This document shows, one piece after another, positions 16,838 through 34,586 of a stretch of 64,000 nt of DNA (the first letter of the stretch is position 1; the number at the start of each line of letters is the position of its first letter). The stretch covers positions 66,006,923-66,070,922 of the forward strand of contig CM055092.1 in NCBI GenBank assembly GCA_029204225.1, written 5' to 3'. A program made the translations under genes and the position numbers. This DNA is from Diphasiastrum complanatum (lineage: Eukaryota; Streptophyta; Lycopodiopsida; Lycopodiales; Lycopodiaceae). Under the pieces are notes generated by a model. That model was not told the origin of the DNA, did not search any database, and saw only the letters and a list, made by a program, of their open reading frames with translations.

Positions 16838-17262
16838 ATGAAGGAAAATTTTAAAAAGAAGGGTCTCGGGCCAACGCTCATGCTACCTGTCACAATGTGA
16901 GCACTACCAGGATAGCGTGAGCTGCCCGCTCACACTATTATTTTAATTATAATAGATATATAATAGTCAACTGATATAGAATTTAAAAGTTCATATACAT
17001 TGTGTATACTTACGCTAAAATTTTAAGAAAGCTATAAATATCATGACATTGGCTAGTTTTAAAAAATGGGGGTCTTTTTAGTACTAAAAGTAATCACACT
17101 CAACCAACATTGAATTCAACTTCAAACACCCATAAAAATATCTTATTTTTCTATTGAATTCTTATGAGAGTCAAATTTTTTCATACCAAGGTGGGGTACT
17201 CCGGTAGTTGATAAAGTGTTGCACCTCATTGTTTATACTTAGACCAAGGGGTACTATAAATT
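16131..17262. repeat. Repeat family R1, copy A (~1.13 kb)
   Basis: Aligned along its whole length with 36560-37680 at about 95% identity by eye, and a third, partial copy lies at about 45980-46100. It contains 35 consecutive A residues (16802-16836) and a 15 bp inverted repeat (CCTTCATGTTTTTTT at 16741 and its complement at 16830-16844) that would form a hairpin. No ORF, LTR or terminal repeat is evident, so I cannot class it. Confidence 0.85.
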
Positions 17263-17265
17263 AAA

Positions 17266-17556
17266 GTTGCTTATGTATCCAAGCCTTCAAAGGAGGATGA
17301 TCACACAAGATGCACATATTTTCTTTCTTCAAGACTAGCGAAGTGTGCCCGTCGATGATGGACGCGGGGGGCGGCGATCTGGGTGACGGCTGATGATTTG
17401 GGTGACAGCCGATGATTTGGATGGCAGCCGATGTTTTAGGAAGAAAGCCGGTGGTCGTTGATGGGTGGCCGATGTATGTGTGCATGTACGTGGCCAAAGT
17501 GTTTCCGCTGATGGCGGGTGGCTGATGAGGTGTGTGTGCGTGCATGCGCGTGACGC

Positions 17557-22440: not shown

Positions 22441-23307
22441 ACCAGGAGGATGTTTCATGTAAATCTCCTCCTCAAAGTAACCATTGAGAAATGCATTGGA
22501 AACATCAAGCTGGAACATACTCCAATTGTGAAAACATGCAAGAGATATGAGTATTCCAATTGTTACCATTTTTTAAACAAGTGCAAAGGTGTCTTCATAG
22601 TCAAAACCTTTGATTTGTCAGTAGCCTTTGGCACAAAGTCTTGCTTTATACTTATTGATAGATCCATCATAATTATACTTGATTCTGAAAACCCACTTAC
22701 ATCCAATCACATGCATGTTGTTTGGTGGCTCCACAGGCTCCCGTGTGTTGTTTGACATCAAGGCTTCAAACTATTGGGTCATTGCTTCAACTCACATCTT
22801 GGATTGAAGTGCTTCTTGGACATCTTTAGGCTCTTCATCTGATATGAAGAGAGCATGATAGGAAGTTTCACCTTCCACTTGCCTTCCTTCCTCATCATAT
22901 GTGAGCCTCCTTGGCTCAGATCTTTCTCTTGTAGATCTTCTTGGTGTGGTTGCTTGAAGTTGTTCCTCCTCAAGCCTCAGCCTCACCACTTCTTGAGCAG
23001 CATCAAGATTGATAATTGTAGATCTTGCATGAGACTCCTTGATCTGTGCATCATCCAAGTTAAACTTTTGATCTTCATGGAAGATCACATCTCTACTAAC
23101 AACATTCTTGTCAGTAGAGGGAAGATATACTTTGTATGCTTTTTTAGTAGATGCATATCCTACAAAAATTCCTTTAACAACACTAGGATCTTCCTTCTTC
23201 CTAGTTTCTAGGGGTACATGCACAAAGCATACATAGCCAGAAATCCTAAGATGATCTACCTTAGGCTTTTTCTTATACAACATCTCAAATGGTGTTTTTC
23301 CTCCTAT
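22441..23307 (-). pseudogene. Ty1/copia integrase-to-RT fragment, copy A
   Basis: The minus strand encodes the integrase C-terminus (MLYKKKPKVDHLRI, GIFVGYASTKKAYKVYL, VVSRDVIFHED), an acidic linker, and then a disrupted RT start (VIGCKWVFRIKYN, YKARLCAKGY, AFLNGYFEEEIYMKHPP). Stops occur in the RT part. It overlaps 43911-44455 at over 95% and runs further into RT. It is cut at 23307 within GGKTPFE and at 22441 within RT. Confidence 0.85.
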
Positions 23308-24479
23308 GGGCAGTAGAAAATCTCTTACGCCACGTAGCAGTAGGGTCTACCAACGATCAGCAAGTATTGAAGTAGGCGGAGAGGAGAGACGGAAAGTGTC
23401 GAAGATGGATCGCATGGTAGGCAAGGAGAGGGGGAGGGGACATCCATGATTTGACAGGGGGGCACATGGACGAGCTCAAGACGAGGGTGTTGGGAGAAGA
23501 GATAAGGCGAACCAAGAGGGAAGAGAGACAAAGTCTAGATGGATTCATCCGACAAGAGGAGAGGTAAAGGCGAGTGATGAAAAAGATGAGGTTTTCAAAG
23601 ATTATGTTAGAACATCAAATAATGTGCCACATTGCATCACAAAAACTAATGACATTTTCAGCAAATTTGATTGATGGAATTTTTTTAAGTACTTTTCGAA
23701 TCCAAGTGATGCAAACTTGTTTGAGTAATGTTAGTGGCCCACATCTTAGGATAATGTTTGTAAAAGGTCCTTGCGCTCCACAAATTTGCTACAATTAATA
23801 AGGTCAAGAGTGTGAAATGTATTTGGGTTCAAAAAAGAAAATAGACAAATAACTAAGGTCGCTGTAGCTGCAAGGCCTAAAACCAGCTTAGATTAGCAAG
23901 AATTAGTTTTGAAATAGTGCATGGTCTGTATATTACTGTGCATAAGTTGCATCATGTGCTCCTTTGCAACAGCCGCACTTCATTGAAGCTCCATTCTAAC
24001 ATTCAGACAAAGATGCCAACATCAAACCATCATCCTTGCCTTAAGATCAATTCAGTTGTCTTCAAGCATCAGATGACAACAAAGAGTCTTAGTGACTGAA
24101 ATTTCTGAGTTATAAAACAAAGCTGTAGTTGAGCTAAGACATACAGAAAACTACCGATTTGATTGTATGTAACTTCATGGTACCCATTGGGCAGGAACAA
24201 TATTGTACGATAAAGAAGCTAAATTACTACTAAAATTCTGAATTCTAAAGCATGTACACCATCATGGATTTAATAAAGGCGTACAACAAATAACCCATTT
24301 GATTGTATGTGACTTATTACTATTCACCAGAAACAACTTATTAGTATTTGCCGGGAACAATACCGTACAATGAAGAGCCTACATTGAGACTAAAGTTTCT
24401 GAATTATGAAACAGGTACGTCGTCCTTTAAGGTAAAGCTGCCATTAGCCTGGTGACTTAATGTCATCTTGGAGTGCAGA
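23308..24479. other. 3' flank of the BBX gene, no further gene recognised
   Basis: 23330-23560 is purine-rich and of higher GC, with no identifiable product. The remainder is AT-rich and should contain the 3' UTR of the BBX gene on the minus strand, but no clear polyadenylation signal can be singled out. Confidence 0.35.
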
Positions 24480-24764
24480 TCAGACTTCCATGTAAGTCCT
24501 CCTCTTTACAAAATAAGGTGACTCTGCAGTTGATCTAATGCCAAGGTCAGGGACTATCAAAGTATCAAGGTCATTAGGGTAAAACATTTCGTTCTCACCC
24601 TTAAACTTTGCAGGTCCAGCTACTCTCCTGGACCTTGAAAGCCCGGAAACTGTTGGTGGTGAAGGGATCTTTGGAACCTCATGGATATCATCTCCAGAAG
24701 CTTCCTCGTCAGACAGGCATGTATCTGCTGCCCAGTCACAGTCTCCAAAATTTGTGGTGTCACC
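24480..24764 (-). CDS. BBX exon 3 (C-terminal region with VP motif)
   Basis: 94 codons and stop, lying 9 kb from exon 2. The match to the C-terminus of BBX22-type proteins (acidic stretch, [15 protein letters not shown], basic tail) and the compatible phase tie it to the gene. No other B-box coding sequence occurs nearby to claim it. RNA evidence would settle the join. Confidence 0.78.
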   Translation of the reverse strand, partial: GDTTNFGDCDWAADTCLSDEEASGDDIHEVPKIPSPPTVSGLSRSRRVAGPAKFKGENEMFYPNDLDTLIVPDLGIRSTAESPYFVKRRTYMEV

Positions 24765-27700
24765 CTGAAGAGCATTCAAACCTTACATGTTTAAAGGCTT
24801 GATCTACTTCTATAGCTACCAAATTATGATGGCAATACCATCAGCCATCAAAGTTACTTGGTTGTGAAAACTGAAAGCCACCACCAAGCTTCCAACATTA
24901 TTTCTCAAACAAGTTCATAATAACAAATTCCACGACGTAGAAGCACTACAAATAATCACATTATGAAAGCCAAAAAAAAATGCAACAGAAAGACAAGCTT
25001 CTAATCTCATTATAATCATCTAGCTAATAGCCAATGAAATATCATTTGCTTTTCCCGGTACCCTGTTAAATTCTTCATTTAACTGTATTCTAATCTACCT
25101 ATTTGTCCCTTCAAAAGTCAACATCCTTAACTAATCAAAATTCTGGGCCATACTCATTTAGAAGCTCTTCGAGAGATCCAAGAGCCACTTACACAACTTT
25201 GACCATTTATTAGTGACAACCCAAAATTCACCAAATCATGTTCTAACAGGATTTTGTAATATGTGTCCCTCAAGCTTTGAACCATAGTTGCATGCATACA
25301 ATCCAAAACATGATCCGGATAGCGTTCAGGAAATTAGGCTTAGGGTTTTCCAGAACACAAGTGCATATTGGGGGAAGCCCATATGAAATCGGGAGCTATT
25401 GCAAATAATTATCACTCTTAATGTTAGTTGGGTTCCAAACTCATGAATGATGAGTGAGGATAAAGATGAACTTGTGAAGGACAACTTAATGGCCTACTCT
25501 ACAAATAAACTATCAATCATTTACACATCATGACATGGATAAATGAGCTAATTCTTTTCTTTGGAGCTTCGATCTGACAGGTAATTGAAATTCAGCCGTA
25601 CACAACCTGTAAAAAATCCTTGACTGAACCTCCCAAAACCAGTCTATGAAGGCCTATAGATTCATGTCATGGACCAATTTGCCCCCATTTAGTTGGATAG
25701 AGTAAGCTTGTAACATTGATTGTTTTCACTCCAGCATGTTTTTGGCTTACAGTGTATCTGTCTGTAATTGACCAGATCAATATAGCTCTGTGCAATGATA
25801 TTTTTGTCTCTTTCCAATTTATCAGTACTTTGTTCCTCTAATGTGTTCAATAATCATTTCTGAGTTCCATTAACACTAAGTAAACTATCAAAAAAAATTC
25901 AGCTTTTAGTCTTTTTCAAAAAAAAGATTATCCATAACACACGTCCCCGAACAATTTTGCAGCACATCACAATCCCCCACAACTATGCTTTGAACTAAGA
26001 AAATCTAAACAGAACAACGTTTATAAAAGACACGAGGTCGCTGACTGTCAAGTATATTCGTTGTTCGAATCAATTCGACACCGAAGTCAATGTGATTCAG
26101 TCAGATTCGACTTTAAAGTATGCCTTTAAGTAATATCATTCTACCTTCATTATAAGTCTGCCTTTATGTTGAGGTAGCTTAATGTTCCAGTCTTCAAATT
26201 ATACTTGGCCGAATAAGTTCATGTGAATATAGAGTCAGACTTCCGATACATAGCTATCCAGACTCCAGTAGTGCTTCCTTCTTTTGAATATGAGACTTCA
26301 TTTTTTATATTATTTTTTATTAGAATAAAACGGAGTAAATATAATGTAATTTTGAAAAATGCGACGTAATAGGGTATTACAGCTAGCAATACCTGATTTT
26401 CATACCCTTTTACTTCATTGGACGGATTGGCCCATGTTTCAAAATTTTCCAACTTGGATTCTTCAAGTATGTTTGAAATCTGCCAATATGGCATATACTC
26501 CAGGGGAAACGGCCTCAGTGCCAATGAGTCCACAGGTTCTATATGCACCATTTAGTCTAAGATCCTCCTAAGTTCAACATAGAAGATATAACACCAACAG
26601 TGTATTGCAAACTTACTGCTTCTCTAGCATTTAGTAACTGTGCCCTTATCATATCTGCCCTGCATATAATTTTTACATGTACCTTACAAGTTTTGTATGA
26701 CATTCCTTTGACTCCCTTGATGTTTGGCAGAAACAGTGTCGACTTTTCTTGTGAATTCTGACACACTAATGCTGCTAGATTTTGATGCACAGGCGACAAC
26801 ACTGATATAAGAACAGCCGGTCACCAGCTTAGCAATTTGTATACAATAATGAATGTACTGGAATGCCTGTGCTACTATATTACATTGATGGAGCTCCATA
26901 GGCATTTGAACAACTTCGAATCTCAAACTGACTTGACAGTAAAGGACTGATGTGGTAGTTTACTCATCGGTCCTGAAGTGCACATATATTGGCATTCCTC
27001 AGGAATTTATGTGCTGCAGCAAGATTCGGCAGATTCCATGGATTCTTGAGACCGTAAAACAAATGTAAATCACATTATAACTTTTAAAAGCGACATGCCA
27101 TCAGGTTATGAATCTTGAAGTCCATAAACATGTTCTAAAGCAAATACGGTATATATATATTATATATATATATATATATATATTATATATCATAGTACCC
27201 CCTGGTACTGCTGGTATGGTACCGCCGGTACGGTACCGCCCTGGGATCCGCGGTACCAGGGCTGTACCATTTTTTTTAATATATTTAATAGTTTTTTTTT
27301 GCCTATTACTTAACCAAAAAGGACAAAAAAATGGAAAAAAAAGGGGTACTAGGTGTAAAAAAAGAGGGTACAGTACGTGGTGCAGGGGACTAGTGCAGTG
27401 GCACATGGGCACTGTGGGTGAGCAGACCATGGGGCCAATGGGAGACCAACACATGGGGGGGAGCATCACATGGGGGCAGGTACAGAGGCACATGGGCACT
27501 GTGGGTGAGTAGACCATGGGGCCAATGGGAGACCAACACGAGGGGGGAGCATCACGTGGGGGCAGGTACAGAGGCACATGGATGGATGATGGGGATCCAC
27601 ATGGCCGATCAGGCTGTGGGGATAAATAGGCACTCACAATGCCATTGTGGTCGACATTTTCAGAGGTTGTGAGAGAGCTAGTGATAGACAATGAGAGAGC

Positions 27701-30700
27701 AAGCGATAGTGAGAGAGCTAGTGATAGCCGGTGACAGGCTGTGAGAGGCTGTTTGAGAGCCAGGGTGCTGTGAGACGGTGTTCAAGGACCAGGGTGCTGT
27801 GAGGAGAAGGTCGATCGAGATGGCAGAGTGCATACCACCGAAGCCCGAGGGCGAAGCTAGGAGGAAGCTTGAGGAAGATATCCAAAGGCACAACGAGAGA
27901 CATCGGAAGCAAGAGGCAGATATCCGAGAGATGTTGCGACAGACTCGGCAGAGAAATCCGGAACCGGAGCCACCCGCCCCCGCTGTGGATCATGTCCTCG
28001 CTGTCGAGCTGGATCTGGATGAGCAGATCGGAATGAATTTCACACGACGGCAGCTCATCATGGTCAAGGAAAGGGCGGCCAGACGTCAGGCTAACCAGGA
28101 GGCAGCTCGGGCTAACCGGGAGGCAGAACAAGAGTGACAAAACAATGCACCAGACGAGGGCGAGGAGTCGGTGGAGGATCAGTGAGGGATGTTTAGAATA
28201 GATAAGGTCCAGCCGTATGTGGCGGACTGTTGCTATGTAGTTTTCGGCAGTTTATGGTGCAGCAAATAACTAGATGGCTGCTTAAAAAAATGACAGTATA
28301 TGTGATGTTATCTTGATACAACGGTTGAATATATACATAGTTGTTTTTTGTGCAACGCGAGCCTGGTCATGTAAGATGCAATCTCTGTAATTTTTTTAAA
28401 TGCAGATGTATTACACGTGTTTATGAAATGTCGTTTGGGGTGTAGGGGTGATTGTTGTGCTCATGATGTAGGTGCATATATGTGAAGCTAGCATTCACTT
28501 CAAACGAAATTAAATGAAAATAGGATTCACACACGCACATAGAATTTGACATAAAATTGAAAATACAGCATCACATGTACAGAGCGACATACGCAAAACG
28601 TGCAGCAAATAATGTAGGCCAAACACTGTATATAATGTGAAAAATCATCTGAGTACAATGGTGGACCGTCTGCTGGAGACAAACTACTGAAACTAAAACA
28701 ACAGAGCCACAATCAATGCTCTGGCTCTGACTCAGACGAATGCTCTTGAGACAACTCAGGGCCCTGAGCTGACTCTCGCAGCCGATATCTCTGCCTGTCT
28801 GGAACTGGCATGGGCTGTGTGTCCGAGGAGGAGGACTCGTCACTAGCATCATCCCAGTCTACCTCCGCATCAGCCCCCAAGCAGGCCAAACCAACAACAC
28901 CTTCTCCAACTGGCTGTGATACTGCACCTCTACCAGTACCTGGGGCCCTGCATGGTCGTCCTCTCCTCCCTGGCAGTTTCTGTGCCTTGCCTTTCTTGTT
29001 CGGTGCACCCTTGGGCCTTCCTGGTCTCTTGCGGACAAGAGGAGCTGTCAATGCCTCGTCACCCCCATGCAAATCACCTGGCTGGCTAGGCTGGGCCAAA
29101 GCTGAGGCCGGCTGGGATAGGGAAGCAAAAGAGGGAACTCCCTGTGCACCTGAGCGAGGAGGATGAGCTCGTGGAGTGTGTGCCCATGGGGCTGCTGCAG
29201 GTGGAGGAACTGGCTGTGCAGGAGGCGAGTACCGCGGTGATATGTACTAAAAGGGGCGCTGCGGTGGCCAGTACTGGTACATCCTGGGTGCTGCCAATGG
29301 GAGAGCCAGTGGAGTGGGTGCTGCTAAAGGATGAGGATGTAGAGTGGGTGCTGCCACTGGAGGAGCCACTGTGGATGTGGGCGCTGCGAGAGAAAACCTG
29401 GGCACAGATGGTGACCTGCCATGGAGACTTGGTGCTGCAGAAGTGGACGGCGATGGAGGGGCTGCAGGCCTAAATGGCATCGGTGGCACTAGAAGAGCTG
29501 TGCGACGCACATACACCCTCTGAGGAGCTGGAGGAACTATAGGCACCTCATGCGGCTGCTCTGGCTGAGACTCTGTGTATGGCATGCTGGCAAGAGATGA
29601 TGGGGGCGCCCTGACACTTGGCATCTGCTGGGCCTCTGAATCCAATGTGACAACCAAGTCGTCCAGCTGGGCATCTGAATAAATGCTCTGGGCTCTGGGA
29701 CTCATCCTGTGCACCAGCCTCTAAATCATCCTGTGCACCAACCTCTGAATCATCCTACGCACCAACCCCTGAATCAACCCGAGCCTCATCCCGTGCCTCA
29801 TCATGTGCACCCTGTAGACCTTGCATGGCCTCCCAATCTGTGCAATCAAAGCCATCTGGTGCCTCCTCTGGTGTGCTGTCGTAGTAACGGCCATGACTCT
29901 GTACTGCACGCATCCAAACATCTGCCGAACTGGCATCTAAATCACTTTGCCCTCTATCAAGAGCCTCCTCCATCATGTCGGCATAGGTAGGTATGCCACT
30001 GGCCCCCCCTGTGTGCCCTGCCTGTCTCCCGGTATAACCTGTGCCATGTGTCCCACCTCAGCCACGTGATGCACCTGTGACCCCTGCCCGTGGCGTGTGC
30101 CCTGCACCTGTATCATCTGCCTCATCCCTCTCTGATCTGGCAAACACAACCCGAATGGGCTCATCCTCATCATGCTCATCCTCTGACACTAGCTCATCTG
30201 CCTCATACAATGGGGGCTCTCTGTGCTCAAGCCCAAGCTCTCTCTCTCTCATCTCGGCAAGCTCCCTCTCTCTCTCTGCCATCAACTGTGTGCCCAGGTC
30301 ATCTGCAGGCATGGGATGGGTAGTGTCCGTAGGCAAGTCAATCTAGTGCTCCAAATTAGATATCTTCGTCTGCAAGGTTTAAAATTTGCATGTCAGAGAG
30401 ACAACTTTATGAAGAAATGAAACCAACGTATTAGGAGTCAACCAACATGCTATGGGAGAATAGCAAATCACCTGCAATGCGCTCGTAATGGTCGGAAGTC
30501 TCCTGGCGAGACGTGCCTTGGTGCTACAGAACACCAACCGCTCCAACTGACTCACTGACAACCGGTTTCTTCTCCTCGTGTGAATCAATGCACATGTGCT
30601 CCAATTACGCTCACACACAGAGGCAGCACAGTCCTGTGGTACGTGCAATGAAATGCTTCAGCACATGTGCACGGGTGGAAGGTCAACGAAACACAGCAAT

Positions 30701-33450
30701 GGAGGATGAAATGAGATGCATACCTGAGAAAGGACACGCAGTGCAAGACGTTGTATGGATGGATAGGTGCTACCGAACATGGTCCACCAGGTAATGGGAA
30801 GCTGCCTCCTCTCTGGATCCTGAGCAGCCGGGTGGCCGAACGTGCCCATGCCGAAACGAAATGCAGCGAGCTCCTCCATGAGCCTGATAGGATCCAAACC
30901 TATGTGTGGATCCACCCTGTGAATGTACTGAAGCCAATCGGCCTCGAGCTCCCTGTCTGCGATCTGTGTCGGAGAGAGGAAGAGGGGATGCAGCATGTGT
31001 GCAACGCTGTGGATACTCCTGTGGAAGTAGTTCCACCGCGTCTCCCATATGAACTTCAGCTCTGTCATCCTGCAGGTGAGAGGCATGTGGTTTAGGGCAT
31101 TACGAAAAAACTTAACACTGACAGAAAAACAAACTAGCAATTACTAAAAAGATAAAGGCCAATTACAGTACTATACTGCTTACCTCTCTGGCTGCAAGAT
31201 GGGCAGCTGCAGGAACTGTCCAATCCGGTCCATGAGCTCATATACAAGTCCAAGTGTCGACCCCTCGCTGTCAGCCATGCGGAGCACAATGTAGAGTGGT
31301 CGAAGCAGTCCTGACAATGTCTGTGCATCCCTCCAGAACTGGTCTCCCCTCACCGTGGAAGAAAAGTGCTCCCCATCCTCAGTGTGCTGAAACGTACTGG
31401 CACACCAAAGATCACTGGCAACCATCTGTAGAAGCTGTGCCCTGCACCTGATCAAATGGTCGATGACCACCAAGTCAAATGCAAAGCGTGTGGGGGCTGG
31501 CTTACGGAGGTCCAGATGGCTGAACACCCGGAACATGGCAAGAACACGCCTCTTTCTGGTGACAAAAGTCACCAGGAAGAGGGCCTCACGGACGATGGCT
31601 CTAACCCAGGGAAGTGCACCTATGTCCCCAATGAAAATGTCGTGCGCCGCACAGGGGGTATGGACGATGTGAGGGAACTCGGCCTCTAGTAGGACACCCA
31701 TCTGAACATAGTTGGTGGCATTGTCCGTCACCACCGTAACGACATGCTGGGGGCCTATGGACAGTAAGACCTAATGACATCGTACATGAAATCTGCAGAT
31801 ATGACTCTCCCCCCCCCTACTGCAATCCACGGCTCTCAAAAACTGTGTACCCATGCAGCTGGAGACCAAGATGTTGAGGATCGGCCTCCTCCTGACATCA
31901 GTCCAGCCATCGGACATGATGCTACATCCATATGTGGCCCAGTGGCGGCGTAGAGGCTCCATCTCTCTAGACAAGGACTCAACCCTATCTCTCAACATGT
32001 GTGTGCGGACAACCTCCGAACCAGGGACTCTCTAGCCAGGGCTGACAGACTGTGCAAGGCGGAATGCCCTTCTGAAGGGCTCAGAATCGGTGATGGCAAA
32101 AGGTAGGTTCAGCTCGTAAATCAAACTGGCCACGACCTGTGTGGCCTCTCTATCCATGTGTGGCTGATGCGCGCCGCGAATGGTCTGCTGCACAAGGGCT
32201 CTACTTGGTGGGCAACGGGTGGTGGACCTCCAGCACGGTGCACCAACTGTGACGGGAATGGACGATGACGCGACAGGCTGGGCACTGGTGGATGCATCGG
32301 CTGTAGACGTGGCATGGGGAGAGTGGGATGCACTGGCAGGGATGGGTGCAGCAACATAGGTGGGGTGCACTGGTGGAGGGGCAACATCTGGCATGGGGTA
32401 CGAAAACTGCTGGCTGAGGAGGTCATCCGGATGGGAAGGGAAGGAAGAAGGGATCTCTTCCACATCCTTGAAGGCCTCAGTAGTAGCATCCTGGGCCTGC
32501 TCGGGTGGCGGAGAGTCCATGAGAAAGTCGTAAACCGGGGCGTGCAAGCAACAGGACGTGGAGGTGGAACCACAGTGGCAACTGGCGGACGCGATGGGAC
32601 GGGATCCACCGGAATCTGAGCAGATGGAGGTGCGTGAGGCAGAACTGTCTGAGGGGGATGAGGGGCAAAGGGACTGGACGAGGATGCACTCCCTCTCCTC
32701 GTGCGTGCCAGCCAAGCAGGCAGCAACTCTGGGTCAGCCACATAAGGAGCGGTGCAAAATCGGAGAATGCCCTCCGAAATGGTGTTCTCCCCCGCCACGA
32801 GCCGCGGCCCGTAGGTGTCTAGTAGTCGTTGCCTGTCGGGGACGATCATGCTCCCACAAGGGACAGCATTCAAGGTGGCACCATTTTTGGCGCGTGCACC
32901 GAGTAGATGGCCTTAAAGGCGAGTGAGGGATGCAGCAAATTCGACGAGACGGTATCGGCAGCGCACGATCTTCTGTTCGGTCTTGTTGGACTTGTCGGCA
33001 ACCCGCCTGACAATGTCTACCTCGTTTCACAGACCGGAAAGGTCGGATTGCACCATTGCGATGGAGAAAACTAGGGACAAAATGCAGATGAAGCTAAAGC
33101 TAAGGCTGGAAAAAAAAACAGCAGGGTACACTGTGTGAGAGATGCTGAAAATGGGTGAAGGCAGGTTCTGGCAAATCAGATGCAAGGCAGGGCGGTATGT
33201 GGGCGAAGGGCGAAGCAAATCAGACGCAAGGCAAGACAGCAAAACCAGTAGCGAAGGCAGGGCAACGATGGCTGCAAAAAAACTGGGAGAGAAGCGAGGG
33301 GGGCGGGTAGATTGGGTTTAAAAAAATTTCAAAAAATATTAAATATTAATTATATTAATATATTATGGTACCGCGGTACCATCATGGTACCGCGATACCA
33401 GTACGGTCCCACGGTACCGGGATCCGTGGTACCCAGTACCGCGGGACCTA

Positions 33451-33491
<41 letters not shown>

Positions 33492-34586
33492 GGTGGAGAA
33501 ATGGAAGATATTGTAGCCACTTAAAAAGTCAAATTGTGGGCCATAGATTTCTTCGACCGTCTAGAAAATGCTTGTCAGGGATAGATCTTTTAGTGACTCC
33601 GTCCAAATATGGCTTGGACTAATGGCTTCGCAATAATATTGCAGCCAGCCATTTTACCAGGTAGAAAGGCCACTAAACAATCCATTCCCAAATACAAAAA
33701 CTCAGCCAAGTGGAAAGATTGCGAAGGCAAGGTAATTACACATCAAAGCACAAGATAAGTACCTTAATATTGGGTTCTATATCACCAAAATCATAGCCTC
33801 CTGGAATATCAGGAATATTAAGAAGCTCGTCCACTCTCCAGCCTGGAACCGTTTCGGTTAGGAACTCCGATATACTGCTCTTTCTTGAAACATTTCCAAA
33901 TCTGCTCTGACCGCCAGATTTTGATATTATTGTATCTGAATTTTCTCTTGCATTGAGCTTTTCGTTGGTCATCGGGTGAGCAGACTCGGAAAGAGGTTGT
34001 GTACAAAGCACCTTTGTGTGCATCATGGCATTCGCTTTTCGAGATGCAGGGCACAATAACGCCCCCGCAGCAGGTCGAGGAGAGCCTGGTGTCCCCAAAG
34101 CACTTAGCGCAACTCTTGCTCCCGTCACAAGGAACCTTTGATGATTTGAGGAAATCGTGTTAATAGTATGTATAGACACATCGCAGTTTCTGCACAGTAA
34201 AGCTCGATCCTCCATACAGAAAAAATAGCCTGTCTTCTCCTGCAAGAACAGTTGACAATAAAGGTTAACTCGTACACGACCACATCACTTAAGATACAGG
34301 ATAAATCCTCCTTCGATCATCCAAAGAACCGGGAACATTTGATAAAGAACTTTGGTAGCACAGCAACCACACATGATAAGGAAAAATAAGGCATATCATG
34401 AACCTGGCAAATATCACAGCGGGGCGAGTCAACGATAGGATTGATCAGAGGCACGCGCTGATGCTTGTTTGCTAGCTTATTTGCCTCGTGGACCTCAACA
34501 TCACACTCCGAACACAAAGCCGCTTCGTCTGCAGAACATATTATAGTGGCTTCCGCTTTCTCGCATACATCACATAATATTCTCAT
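24480..34586 (-). CDS. Double B-box zinc-finger transcription factor, BBX20-22 type (3 exons)
   Basis: Three exons (34586-34404, 34239-33763, 24764-24480), all phase 0 with GT...AG junctions (CAG|GTTCAT, AAG|GTACTT; acceptors TTGCAG and CTTCAG), give a 314-residue protein. B-box 1 (residues about 5-45) and B-box 2 (57-97) keep their Cys/Asp/His zinc ligands. No CCT domain follows, which marks structure group [15 protein letters not shown] mirrors the SxSISEYL-PGW motif of BBX20-22. In exon 3, [12 protein letters not shown] matches the VPQIQSPPTASGL stretch of Arabidopsis BBX22, and VPDLG at 291-295 is the VP-type motif used by group IV members to bind COP1. Such proteins act in the nucleus with HY5 in light signalling. 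I chose the ATG at 34586 because family members begin M(K/R)IxCDVCE; upstream in-frame ATGs exist. Orthology within BBX20-25 is not settled. Intron 2 (9.0 kb) holds a hAT element. Confidence 0.85.
27150..27190. repeat. (TA)n microsatellite at left hAT boundary
   Basis: TA-rich tract of about 40 bp immediately outside the left terminal inverted repeat. A matching tract lies at the right boundary. Confidence 0.9.
27191..27276 (+). repeat. Left terminal inverted repeat of hAT element
   Basis: Begins CATAGTACCCCCTGGTACTG. It pairs imperfectly in inverted orientation with 33366-33452 and carries three GGTACC words. Confidence 0.75.
27401..27580. repeat. ~87 bp subterminal tandem repeat (two copies)
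   Basis: A unit beginning GCACATGGGCACTGTGGGTG starts at 27401 and again at 27488, with the first bases of a third at 27574. The copies are over 90% alike. Confidence 0.88.
27820..28137 (+). CDS. Charged coiled-coil-like ORF inside hAT element, function unknown
   Basis: Starting at the ATG at 27820, this frame encodes about 105 residues that are very rich in Glu, Arg, Lys and Gln ([40 protein letters not shown]) with a Pro-rich hinge (EPEPPAPA) in between. The two charged segments look like long helices. No known domain is recognised. It runs opposite to the transposase and lies at the left end of the element, so it would be a second gene of the transposon. The TGA at 28135 is followed by 15 further in-frame codons with an acidic bias ([11 protein letters not shown]) up to another TGA at 28183, so the original end was probably 28185. 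Codon use and GC content resemble the rest of the element, not the flanks. Confidence 0.5.
   Translation: MAECIPPKPEGEARRKLEEDIQRHNERHRKQEADIREMLRQTRQRNPEPEPPAPAVDHVLAVELDLDEQIGMNFTRRQLIMVKERAARRQANQEAARANREAEQE
28713..30057 (-). pseudogene. C-terminal tail of hAT transposase: Pro-rich region and AT-hooks
   Basis: Three successive open minus-strand segments continue from the dimerisation region. The first (29976-29755) reads [16 protein letters not shown] and W(M)[11 protein letters not shown]. The second (29714-29247) is a Pro/Ala/Ser-rich linker. The third (29099-28713) has two AT-hook-like cores, RKRPGRPKG (29033-29007) and GRRGRPCR (28970-28947), and an acidic Ser-rich end. Stops separate the segments. 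Whether all belonged to one polypeptide is inferred from orientation and order. Confidence 0.5.
30058..33056 (-). pseudogene. hAT transposase (BED finger, DUF659-like, dimerisation), broken
   Basis: Read 33056 to 30058. A BED-type finger lies at about 33,020-32,860, with the second Cys of its C-x2-C replaced by Arg and a stop in place of the residue before GHLLG. A Pro-rich linker follows. The DUF659-like region (about 32,190-31,180) shows [41 protein letters not shown] and TPCAAHDI. Then come [12 protein letters not shown] and [15 protein letters not shown], and the hAT dimerisation motif [22 protein letters not shown], continuing after an apparent intron to [19 protein letters not shown]. 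Apparent introns have GT/AG ends (for example GAG|GTAAGC near 31,185 and CAG|GTATGC near 30,725). Lesions include stops near 33,030, 32,917 and 32,033, a frameshift at a G9 run (31,809-31,817) and another near 31,770. It cannot encode an active enzyme as it stands. Confidence 0.8.
33366..33452 (-). repeat. Right terminal inverted repeat of hAT element
   Basis: On the minus strand it begins CATAGGTCCCGCGGTACTGG. It carries five GGTACC words and is followed on the plus strand by about 36 bp of TA repeat. Confidence 0.75.
33453..33488. repeat. (TA)n microsatellite at right hAT boundary
   Basis: Pure TA run of about 36 bp directly abutting the right terminal inverted repeat. Confidence 0.95.
33763..34239 (-). 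CDS. BBX exon 2 (B-box 2 and linker)
   Basis: 159 codons. It starts at [16 protein letters not shown] and ends DIEPNIK before a GTACTT donor. It includes the SISEFL...PGW motif. Confidence 0.88.
34404..34586 (-). CDS. BBX exon 1 (B-box 1)
   Basis: 61 codons, from MRILCDVCE to CDICQ. It contains all of B-box 1 and the first Cys pair of B-box 2, the usual split point in this family. Confidence 0.9.

Follow-up and report, generated by a model that had tools for sequence, protein, structure and literature searches.

A decayed hAT transposon in an intron of a Diphasiastrum complanatum B-box gene and the association of its family with TA microsatellites

We analysed 64,000 nucleotides (nt) of the Diphasiastrum complanatum genome (contig CM055092.1, positions 66,006,923 to 66,070,922; the window hereafter), in which the second intron of a B-box (BBX) gene holds a DNA transposon of the hAT superfamily between two (TA)n tracts. 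The best explanation of the whole, to which we assign a probability of about 0.78, is that a dead and silenced hAT element inserted into TA sits in an intron that the host gene splices normally, and that it belongs to a family of two-gene transposons that seeks TA tracts. Within this explanation the anatomy of the element, its decay, its mutation pattern, the association of the family with TA, its end-to-end arrays and the coding constraint on its second gene are matters of observation.

A decayed hAT element in intron 2 of a B-box gene

The host gene and the element are laid out in the window as follows.

34404..34586, minus strand: BBX exon 1, with B-box 1 and the start of B-box 2; donor CAG/GTTCAT
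33763..34239, minus strand: BBX exon 2, with the rest of B-box 2 and a middle region containing WRVDELL; donor AAG/GTACTT
24765..33762, minus strand: BBX intron 2, 8,998 bp, GT-AG
24480..24764, minus strand: BBX exon 3, 94 amino acids (aa), with a COP1-binding-type VPDLG motif and the stop
27191..33452, minus strand: hAT element of 6,262 bp, in sense orientation to the host gene, 70% of intron 2
33453..33488, no strand: (TA)n tract of 36 nt at the left (5') end of the element
27150..27190, no strand: interrupted (TA)n tract at the right (3') end of the element
31183..33056, minus strand: transposase exon 1, with DUF659, a putative start, in-frame stops and frameshifts
30724..31069, minus strand: transposase exon 2, which gives the hAT dimerisation domain when spliced with exon 3
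30472..30633, minus strand: transposase exon 3, with the CERNWS end of the hAT dimerisation domain
28713..30369, minus strand: transposase exon 4, a long acidic and proline-rich tail with presumed limits and, in the window copy, a stop near its start
28953..29030, minus strand: two AT-hook-like motifs (KRPGRPKG .. GRRGRP) in the transposase tail, recognised by eye
27820..28137, plus strand: the element's second gene, convergent with that of the transposase; 105 aa long in the window copy

The original prediction of a 6.26-kb hAT element, with a transposase that runs in the direction of the host gene and has its own splice sites and stops, was borne out in each of these respects, the boundaries at 27191 and 33452 being exact. 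The element begins with CATAGGTCCC and ends with GGGTACTATG; its terminal inverted repeats are short (CATAG../..CTATG) and imperfect further in, and its GC content is 53% against 36% in the remainder of the intron. No TA run reaching 10 nt occurs in the window outside the two tracts at the edges of the element. DUF659 (PF04937) is matched with E 5.1e-13 in one open stretch of the window copy and with E 4e-38 in another copy, L023. The hAT dimerisation domain (Dimer_Tnp_hAT, PF05699), matched weakly before splicing (E 0.0017 and 0.014), is matched strongly on the spliced exons 2 and 3 of the window copy (E 3.4e-10, 40 bits against a cut-off of 21.4), indicating that this junction belongs to the transposase gene, and its splice sites fit the plant consensus (donor AG/GTAAGC, acceptor CACCTGCAG/GAT). 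DUF659 is linked to hAT transposases; Pfam listed no Mutator (mudrA-like) domain in the transposase but DUF659 and hAT dimerisation instead, and we class the element as a hAT by its protein domains.

The window copy is no longer able to make an intact transposase, since it carries in-frame stops and frameshifts against L023, in which transposase exon 1 is open over 717 codons. Counted where at least five other copies cover the site, its private changes amount to 65 of 6,215 sites (1.05%, or 0.37% without C>T types), and 42 of the 65 are C>T or G>A. Broken down by context, the C>T-type changes affect 15 of 478 CG sites (3.1%), 17 of 724 CHG sites (2.3%) and 10 of 2,088 CHH sites (0.5%). Decay of methylated plant heterochromatin yields mutation biased towards CG and CHG, and the element probably sits in the intron as a silenced block, a reading taken from the mutation pattern only. 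Eight other copies are alike, with C>T or G>A making up 53-74% of their private changes and with CG and CHG rates above CHH in all eight, less clearly in L021; hence the bias is a property of the family and is not peculiar to this intron. The suggestion that the element could affect the chromatin of the gene gains some support from this mutation pattern.

The three BBX exons join in phase 0 across GT..AG introns to encode a protein of 314 aa, with two B-boxes (Pfam zf-B_box, 6.5e-17, in two stretches) and a C-terminal VPDLG that, by sequence, fits the core V-P-E/D-hydrophobic-G given for the COP1-binding VP motif (PMC6745501). Pfam reported no CCT domain in this protein at E 0.01, and among solved chains CONSTANS and CONSTANS-LIKE 2 match it best by sequence. 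The closest paralogues found in the same genome, L031 on C3 (48% identity) and L032 on C2 (53%), have the same three exons, and VPDLG, encoded by exon 3, is invariant across the three aligned proteins. Their second introns measure only 362 and 386 bp, so that the intron in the window is about 23-25 times longer.

The 9.0-kb distance between exons 2 and 3 proposed for this gene proved to be exactly the 8,998 bp of intron 2. The proposal had allowed that another exon 3 might lie nearer, and a tblastn search of the whole window with both paralogue exon-3 proteins gave no credible alternative: they match 24492-24761 (E 5e-16 and 3e-18), and the next-best match, at 17141-17335 on the opposite strand, has E 0.11. 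We therefore reject a nearer exon 3 within the window, 24480-24764 being the sole credible match. Because the paralogue introns are short and the window offers no other credible match, the simplest view is that the intron lengthened in this copy of the gene; the two closest paralogues do not share the insertion.

We also considered an error of assembly joining and rejected it, since the junction of exon 2 and element recurs in contig C2568 and the exon 3 side in contig C1732. C2568 duplicates the locus at 99.18%, with 5 mismatches and 38 gap positions in 5,231 aligned columns, and also contains the succession of exon 2, TA tract and element; C1732 starts inside the TA tract. As C2568 differs mostly by gaps, we take both contigs as unpolished duplicates and not as a second allele, and the stops in the BBX exon of C2568 as not real. 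Short contigs that duplicate chromosome loci are several in this assembly (C2568, C1732, C1929, C263, C3857 and C4918), and the small gaps of C2568 would mimic pseudogenes.

The family at TA tracts and its second gene

The family, which has spread recently, occupies at least 40 places (the window and duplicate contigs included) at 95-100% identity to a 591-bp stretch. To survey its ends, we took stretches from all 40 places and found ends for part of them; of 40 short stretches among these, 19 showed no element match of at least 60 columns, two of which (L038, L054) still contain an end by pattern. From the 56 left and 45 right pattern matches we set aside look-alikes in internal sequence, left ends read in reverse, matches due to chance and loci that shared a flank with another entry or coincided with it (L010, L030, L014, L036, L057, L045), which gave 30 left and 16 right distinct ends. 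An end was counted as lying at TA if a TA run of at least 10 nt occurred within 30 nt of it. By this measure 23 of the 30 left ends and 12 of the 16 right ends lie at a TA tract, although 12 of the 23 left ends share a tract within arrays and are thus not independent; where no family member lies across the tract, the count is 11 of 18 left ends. As background, 8 of 35,785 intervals of 30 nt (overlapping, with a step of 3, from 108 kb away from the family) lie at TA.

Two family ends meet on one TA tract at ten junctions in nine loci (L011, L018, L020 twice, L025, L026, L043, L049, L055, L074), forming end-to-end arrays. Copies outside TA use the same end bases, CATAG and CTATG, and one of them (L052/L072, on C10) is flanked by an exact 8-bp target duplication, GTATAAAC, beyond which the ninth base differs. 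The left flanks of L023 (C4) and L036 (C11), on different large contigs, are the same, so that the insertion either was duplicated along with the sequence around it or sits within another repeat.

Other flanks bear on whether the TA tracts were there before the element. It could be argued that the tracts were never targets, having either expanded from a TA-like target site duplication once the element was in place or come along with the element in its ends: TA repeats are prone to slippage, (AT)4 would be an acceptable 8-bp site, and in Medicago MuTAnT about 15 repeats are reported at filled sites against 9 at empty ones (PMC4486113). However, the copies outside TA end at the same bases, in one case with the 8-bp duplication flush against them. 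At L019, L038 and L051 the flank is a compound (AG)n(AT)n microsatellite, in which TA adjoins (AG)n, suggesting that the microsatellite came first; and at L027 and L054 the far side of the tract is occupied by an unrelated GC-rich repeat, beginning CTAAGG..GCGGACG and 74% alike over 335 columns, directly across from the hAT. We therefore consider it unlikely that the TA tracts were never targets. The CTAAGG..GCGGACG repeat was also recognised by eye beyond TA tracts at L069, L039 and L022; it is possibly another TA-seeking family, in which case the arrays would be mixed.

The arrays are also where a second alternative finds its support. Copies might reach TA by recombination of circular copies with microsatellites and not through the transposase, as proposed for miniature inverted-repeat transposable elements (MITEs) borne in microsatellites and for SaTars, by a mechanism described in PMC8227079, and the end-to-end, non-nested arrays do resemble those of SaTars. 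Yet repeated insertion into leftover TA would yield the same arrays, and in one copy at least the site outside TA carries a duplication normal for hATs, so that we find this route less probable still than growth of the tracts after insertion.

On the reading that we prefer, a hAT DNA transposon would have inserted, in sense, into a (TA)n microsatellite within BBX intron 2, the tract predating the insertion, and the window copy would then have died, its transposase broken and its sequence altered by methylation-type mutations at CG and CHG. The family would transpose in the ordinary hAT manner, mostly into (TA)n tracts, and reuse of the TA left beside earlier copies would build the end-to-end arrays. 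The aiming would be done by a TA-like target preference of the transposase, perhaps with the help of AT-hooks. The tail motifs KRPGRPKG, exact in 8 of the 11 distinct copies that reach the tail, and RGRPR, found in 9 of the 11, look to us like two AT-hooks. AT-hooks bind AT-rich minor grooves, and our hypothesis is that such a tail could bring the transposase complex to TA tracts; that a TA-like preference for 8-bp sites would suffice by itself is the simpler hypothesis.

The second gene was recognised by comparison between subfamilies, since stop counts alone did not single out its frame. Its open reading frame, 105 aa long in the window copy, reaches 121 aa in L016 and L023, and the two subfamilies differ in it by an in-frame gap of seven codons. 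In six between-subfamily pairs (the L018 neighbour or the L026 neighbour against L016, L023 and L024, the window copy not included), the ratio of nonsynonymous to synonymous substitution rates (dN/dS) is 0.24-0.35. Four of the six pairs were compared in all six frames: the gene's own frame gives 0.24-0.27 (p 1.5e-4 to 7.6e-7, the p values not being independent because the pairs share sequences), four of the five other frames give at least 0.82, and the remaining one, in which the codon positions are mirrored, has 0.37-0.43. Judged by these ratios the second gene is under purifying selection between the subfamilies, and we take it to encode a real second protein. The protein of the window copy has no Pfam match, and a natural guess is that it helps in transposition or in the choice of target.

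Possible consequences for the host transcript

The element had been proposed to affect splicing or termination of the BBX gene and to give a short protein with B-boxes only, without VPDLG. Read-through from exon 2 into the intron adds VLILCFDV before a stop, giving 220+8 residues, while a splice from exon 2 into the transposase acceptor (31069) would append roughly 100 residues foreign to the protein, followed by a stop. The expected loss of VPDLG holds for both predicted products, which would lack the last 94 residues; neither consists of B-boxes only, however, as the read-through product retains all of exon 2 and both keep the two B-boxes and a conserved block of 17 residues.

Taken further, this would mean that the sense element cuts the gene in two, with transcripts that end in it or splice into 31069 and yield a stable VPDLG-less protein escaping COP1. 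The transposase splice sites match the plant consensus, and the splice to 31069 would give the truncated product just described. In Arabidopsis, thousands of loci give transcripts that combine transposable elements (TEs) with genes, frequently with alternative ends, and loss of heterochromatin, IBM2 or EDM2 leads to premature polyadenylation within intronic TEs (PMC10241880). On the other side, the frame of exon 3 is open and VPDLG is kept as in both paralogues, so that the full-length product looks maintained, and we think it improbable that the gene is cut. A scan found no AATAAA on the sense strand of the element and two in the intron outside it, at 26321 and 25211. Plant poly(A) signals are loose.

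Exon 2 would most likely be spliced normally to exon 3 across the 9 kb, giving the full-length product, with at most minor isoforms that end or splice inside the intron. The stops of the transposase are irrelevant if the intron is spliced in this way. As a host-gene story the locus is fairly ordinary, a dead and probably methylated transposon in a plant intron, and the family is of more interest. Nevertheless, a BBX copy with a probably silenced 6-kb block just upstream of the exon with the COP1 motif, set against paralogues that have none, offers a natural comparison.

Outside the hAT element, the 2.7 kb of intron 2 are mostly filled by two older repeats, which indicates that the intron grew in several steps.

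25949..26953, no strand: older repeat, 77-90% identical to pieces elsewhere in the genome
25281..25923, no strand: second older repeat, 75-85% identical to pieces elsewhere in the genome

A piece of a retroelement polyprotein (SH3_retrovirus, E 5.4e-26) lies a short way downstream of the BBX gene, at 22792-23346 on the minus strand.

Weight of the evidence and comparison with known elements

Several observations weigh against the explanation that we favour. Ends away from TA number 7 of 30 on the left and 4 of 16 on the right, and the right end of L023, counted as lying at TA, is doubtful. No empty site was seen, which leaves room for growth of TA after insertion. At the window locus a target duplication is unreadable inside TA, and L015, the other copy with both ends outside TA, lacks one, so that one of the two testable copies is positive. 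Mutator-like elements at large have duplications of 8-11 bp (PMC5907723), and as 8 bp fits the hAT and the Mutator-like range alike, the class of the element rests on its protein domains. Pfam did not report AT_hook in the transposase tail. Among close, decaying copies no codon constraint was seen on the transposase, its codon positions varying about equally; since control frames give similar ratios, we make no claim of constraint for it. In 15 copies the start of the second gene was read; its frame extends to the common end in four of them and past the limit of the retrieved sequence in two, and it stops early in the other nine, that of the window being one, as is to be expected where a family decays; and dN/dS of this gene spans 0.20-0.88 in pairs within subfamilies or with the window copy. 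As for the host transcript, carrot transcripts frequently retained short intronic hAT-like elements, from which new splice variants arose (PMC8227079).

A bolder version of this explanation holds that a two-gene hAT family independently evolved the targeting of TA microsatellites, steered by AT-hooks and possibly helped by the second protein, and that intronic TA tracts are loading sites for sense or antisense heterochromatin. We put it forward tentatively, at somewhat less than even odds.

Compared with other two-B-box BBX proteins that have a VP motif (e.g. STO/BBX24), the predicted product of the window gene is alike in its two B-boxes and its VPDLG, and the gene differs in having an intron 2 far longer than those of its paralogues. 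The element resembles the heterochromatic TEs in introns of RPP7 and PPD7, which belong to the IBM2/EDM2 pathway (PMC10241880), as a probably silenced intronic TE that has to be transcribed through, with the difference that silencing is here deduced from the mutation pattern.

Among plant hATs, those of grapevine have terminal inverted repeats of 8-23 bp and target site duplications of 8 bp (PMC2528002). The window family shares with plant hATs (Ac/Ds, Tag1, grapevine Hatvine) the hAT dimerisation domain, DUF659, short inverted ends and, in one copy, an 8-bp duplication, whereas it differs by its location mainly in (TA)n, its end-to-end arrays, its second, convergent gene and its long tail with AT-hook-like motifs. 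Typical hATs have, to our knowledge, one gene.

The TA-targeted elements whose class is stated in the sources cited here are Mutator-like, namely MuTAnT (PMC4486113), SaTars including Micron (PMC5907723) and the pineapple Ac-mMITEs (PMC8449440), with duplications mostly of 9-10 bp outside microsatellites according to the same sources; SaTars and Ac-mMITEs form clusters joined at TA (PMC5907723, PMC8449440). Maize TAFT is also named as TA-targeted, its class not being stated, and the habit is said to have evolved in several unrelated families (PMC4486113). How mobilised copies are directed to TA microsatellites is called unclear (PMC8227079). Our literature searches aimed at TA-targeted hATs turned up no hAT with this habit, and any claim of novelty is limited to these searches. 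The window family is like SaTars, MuTAnT, Micron and Ac-mMITEs in its insertion into TA microsatellites, and like SaTars and Ac-mMITEs in its arrays joined at TA, but it has a hAT transposase, and its single readable duplication is of 8 bp. If this family does target TA, then the habit arises in another transposase superfamily beside the Mutator-like elements, and the family provides a second system for testing TA targeting, one that has a part which may do the aiming as well as a conserved additional protein.

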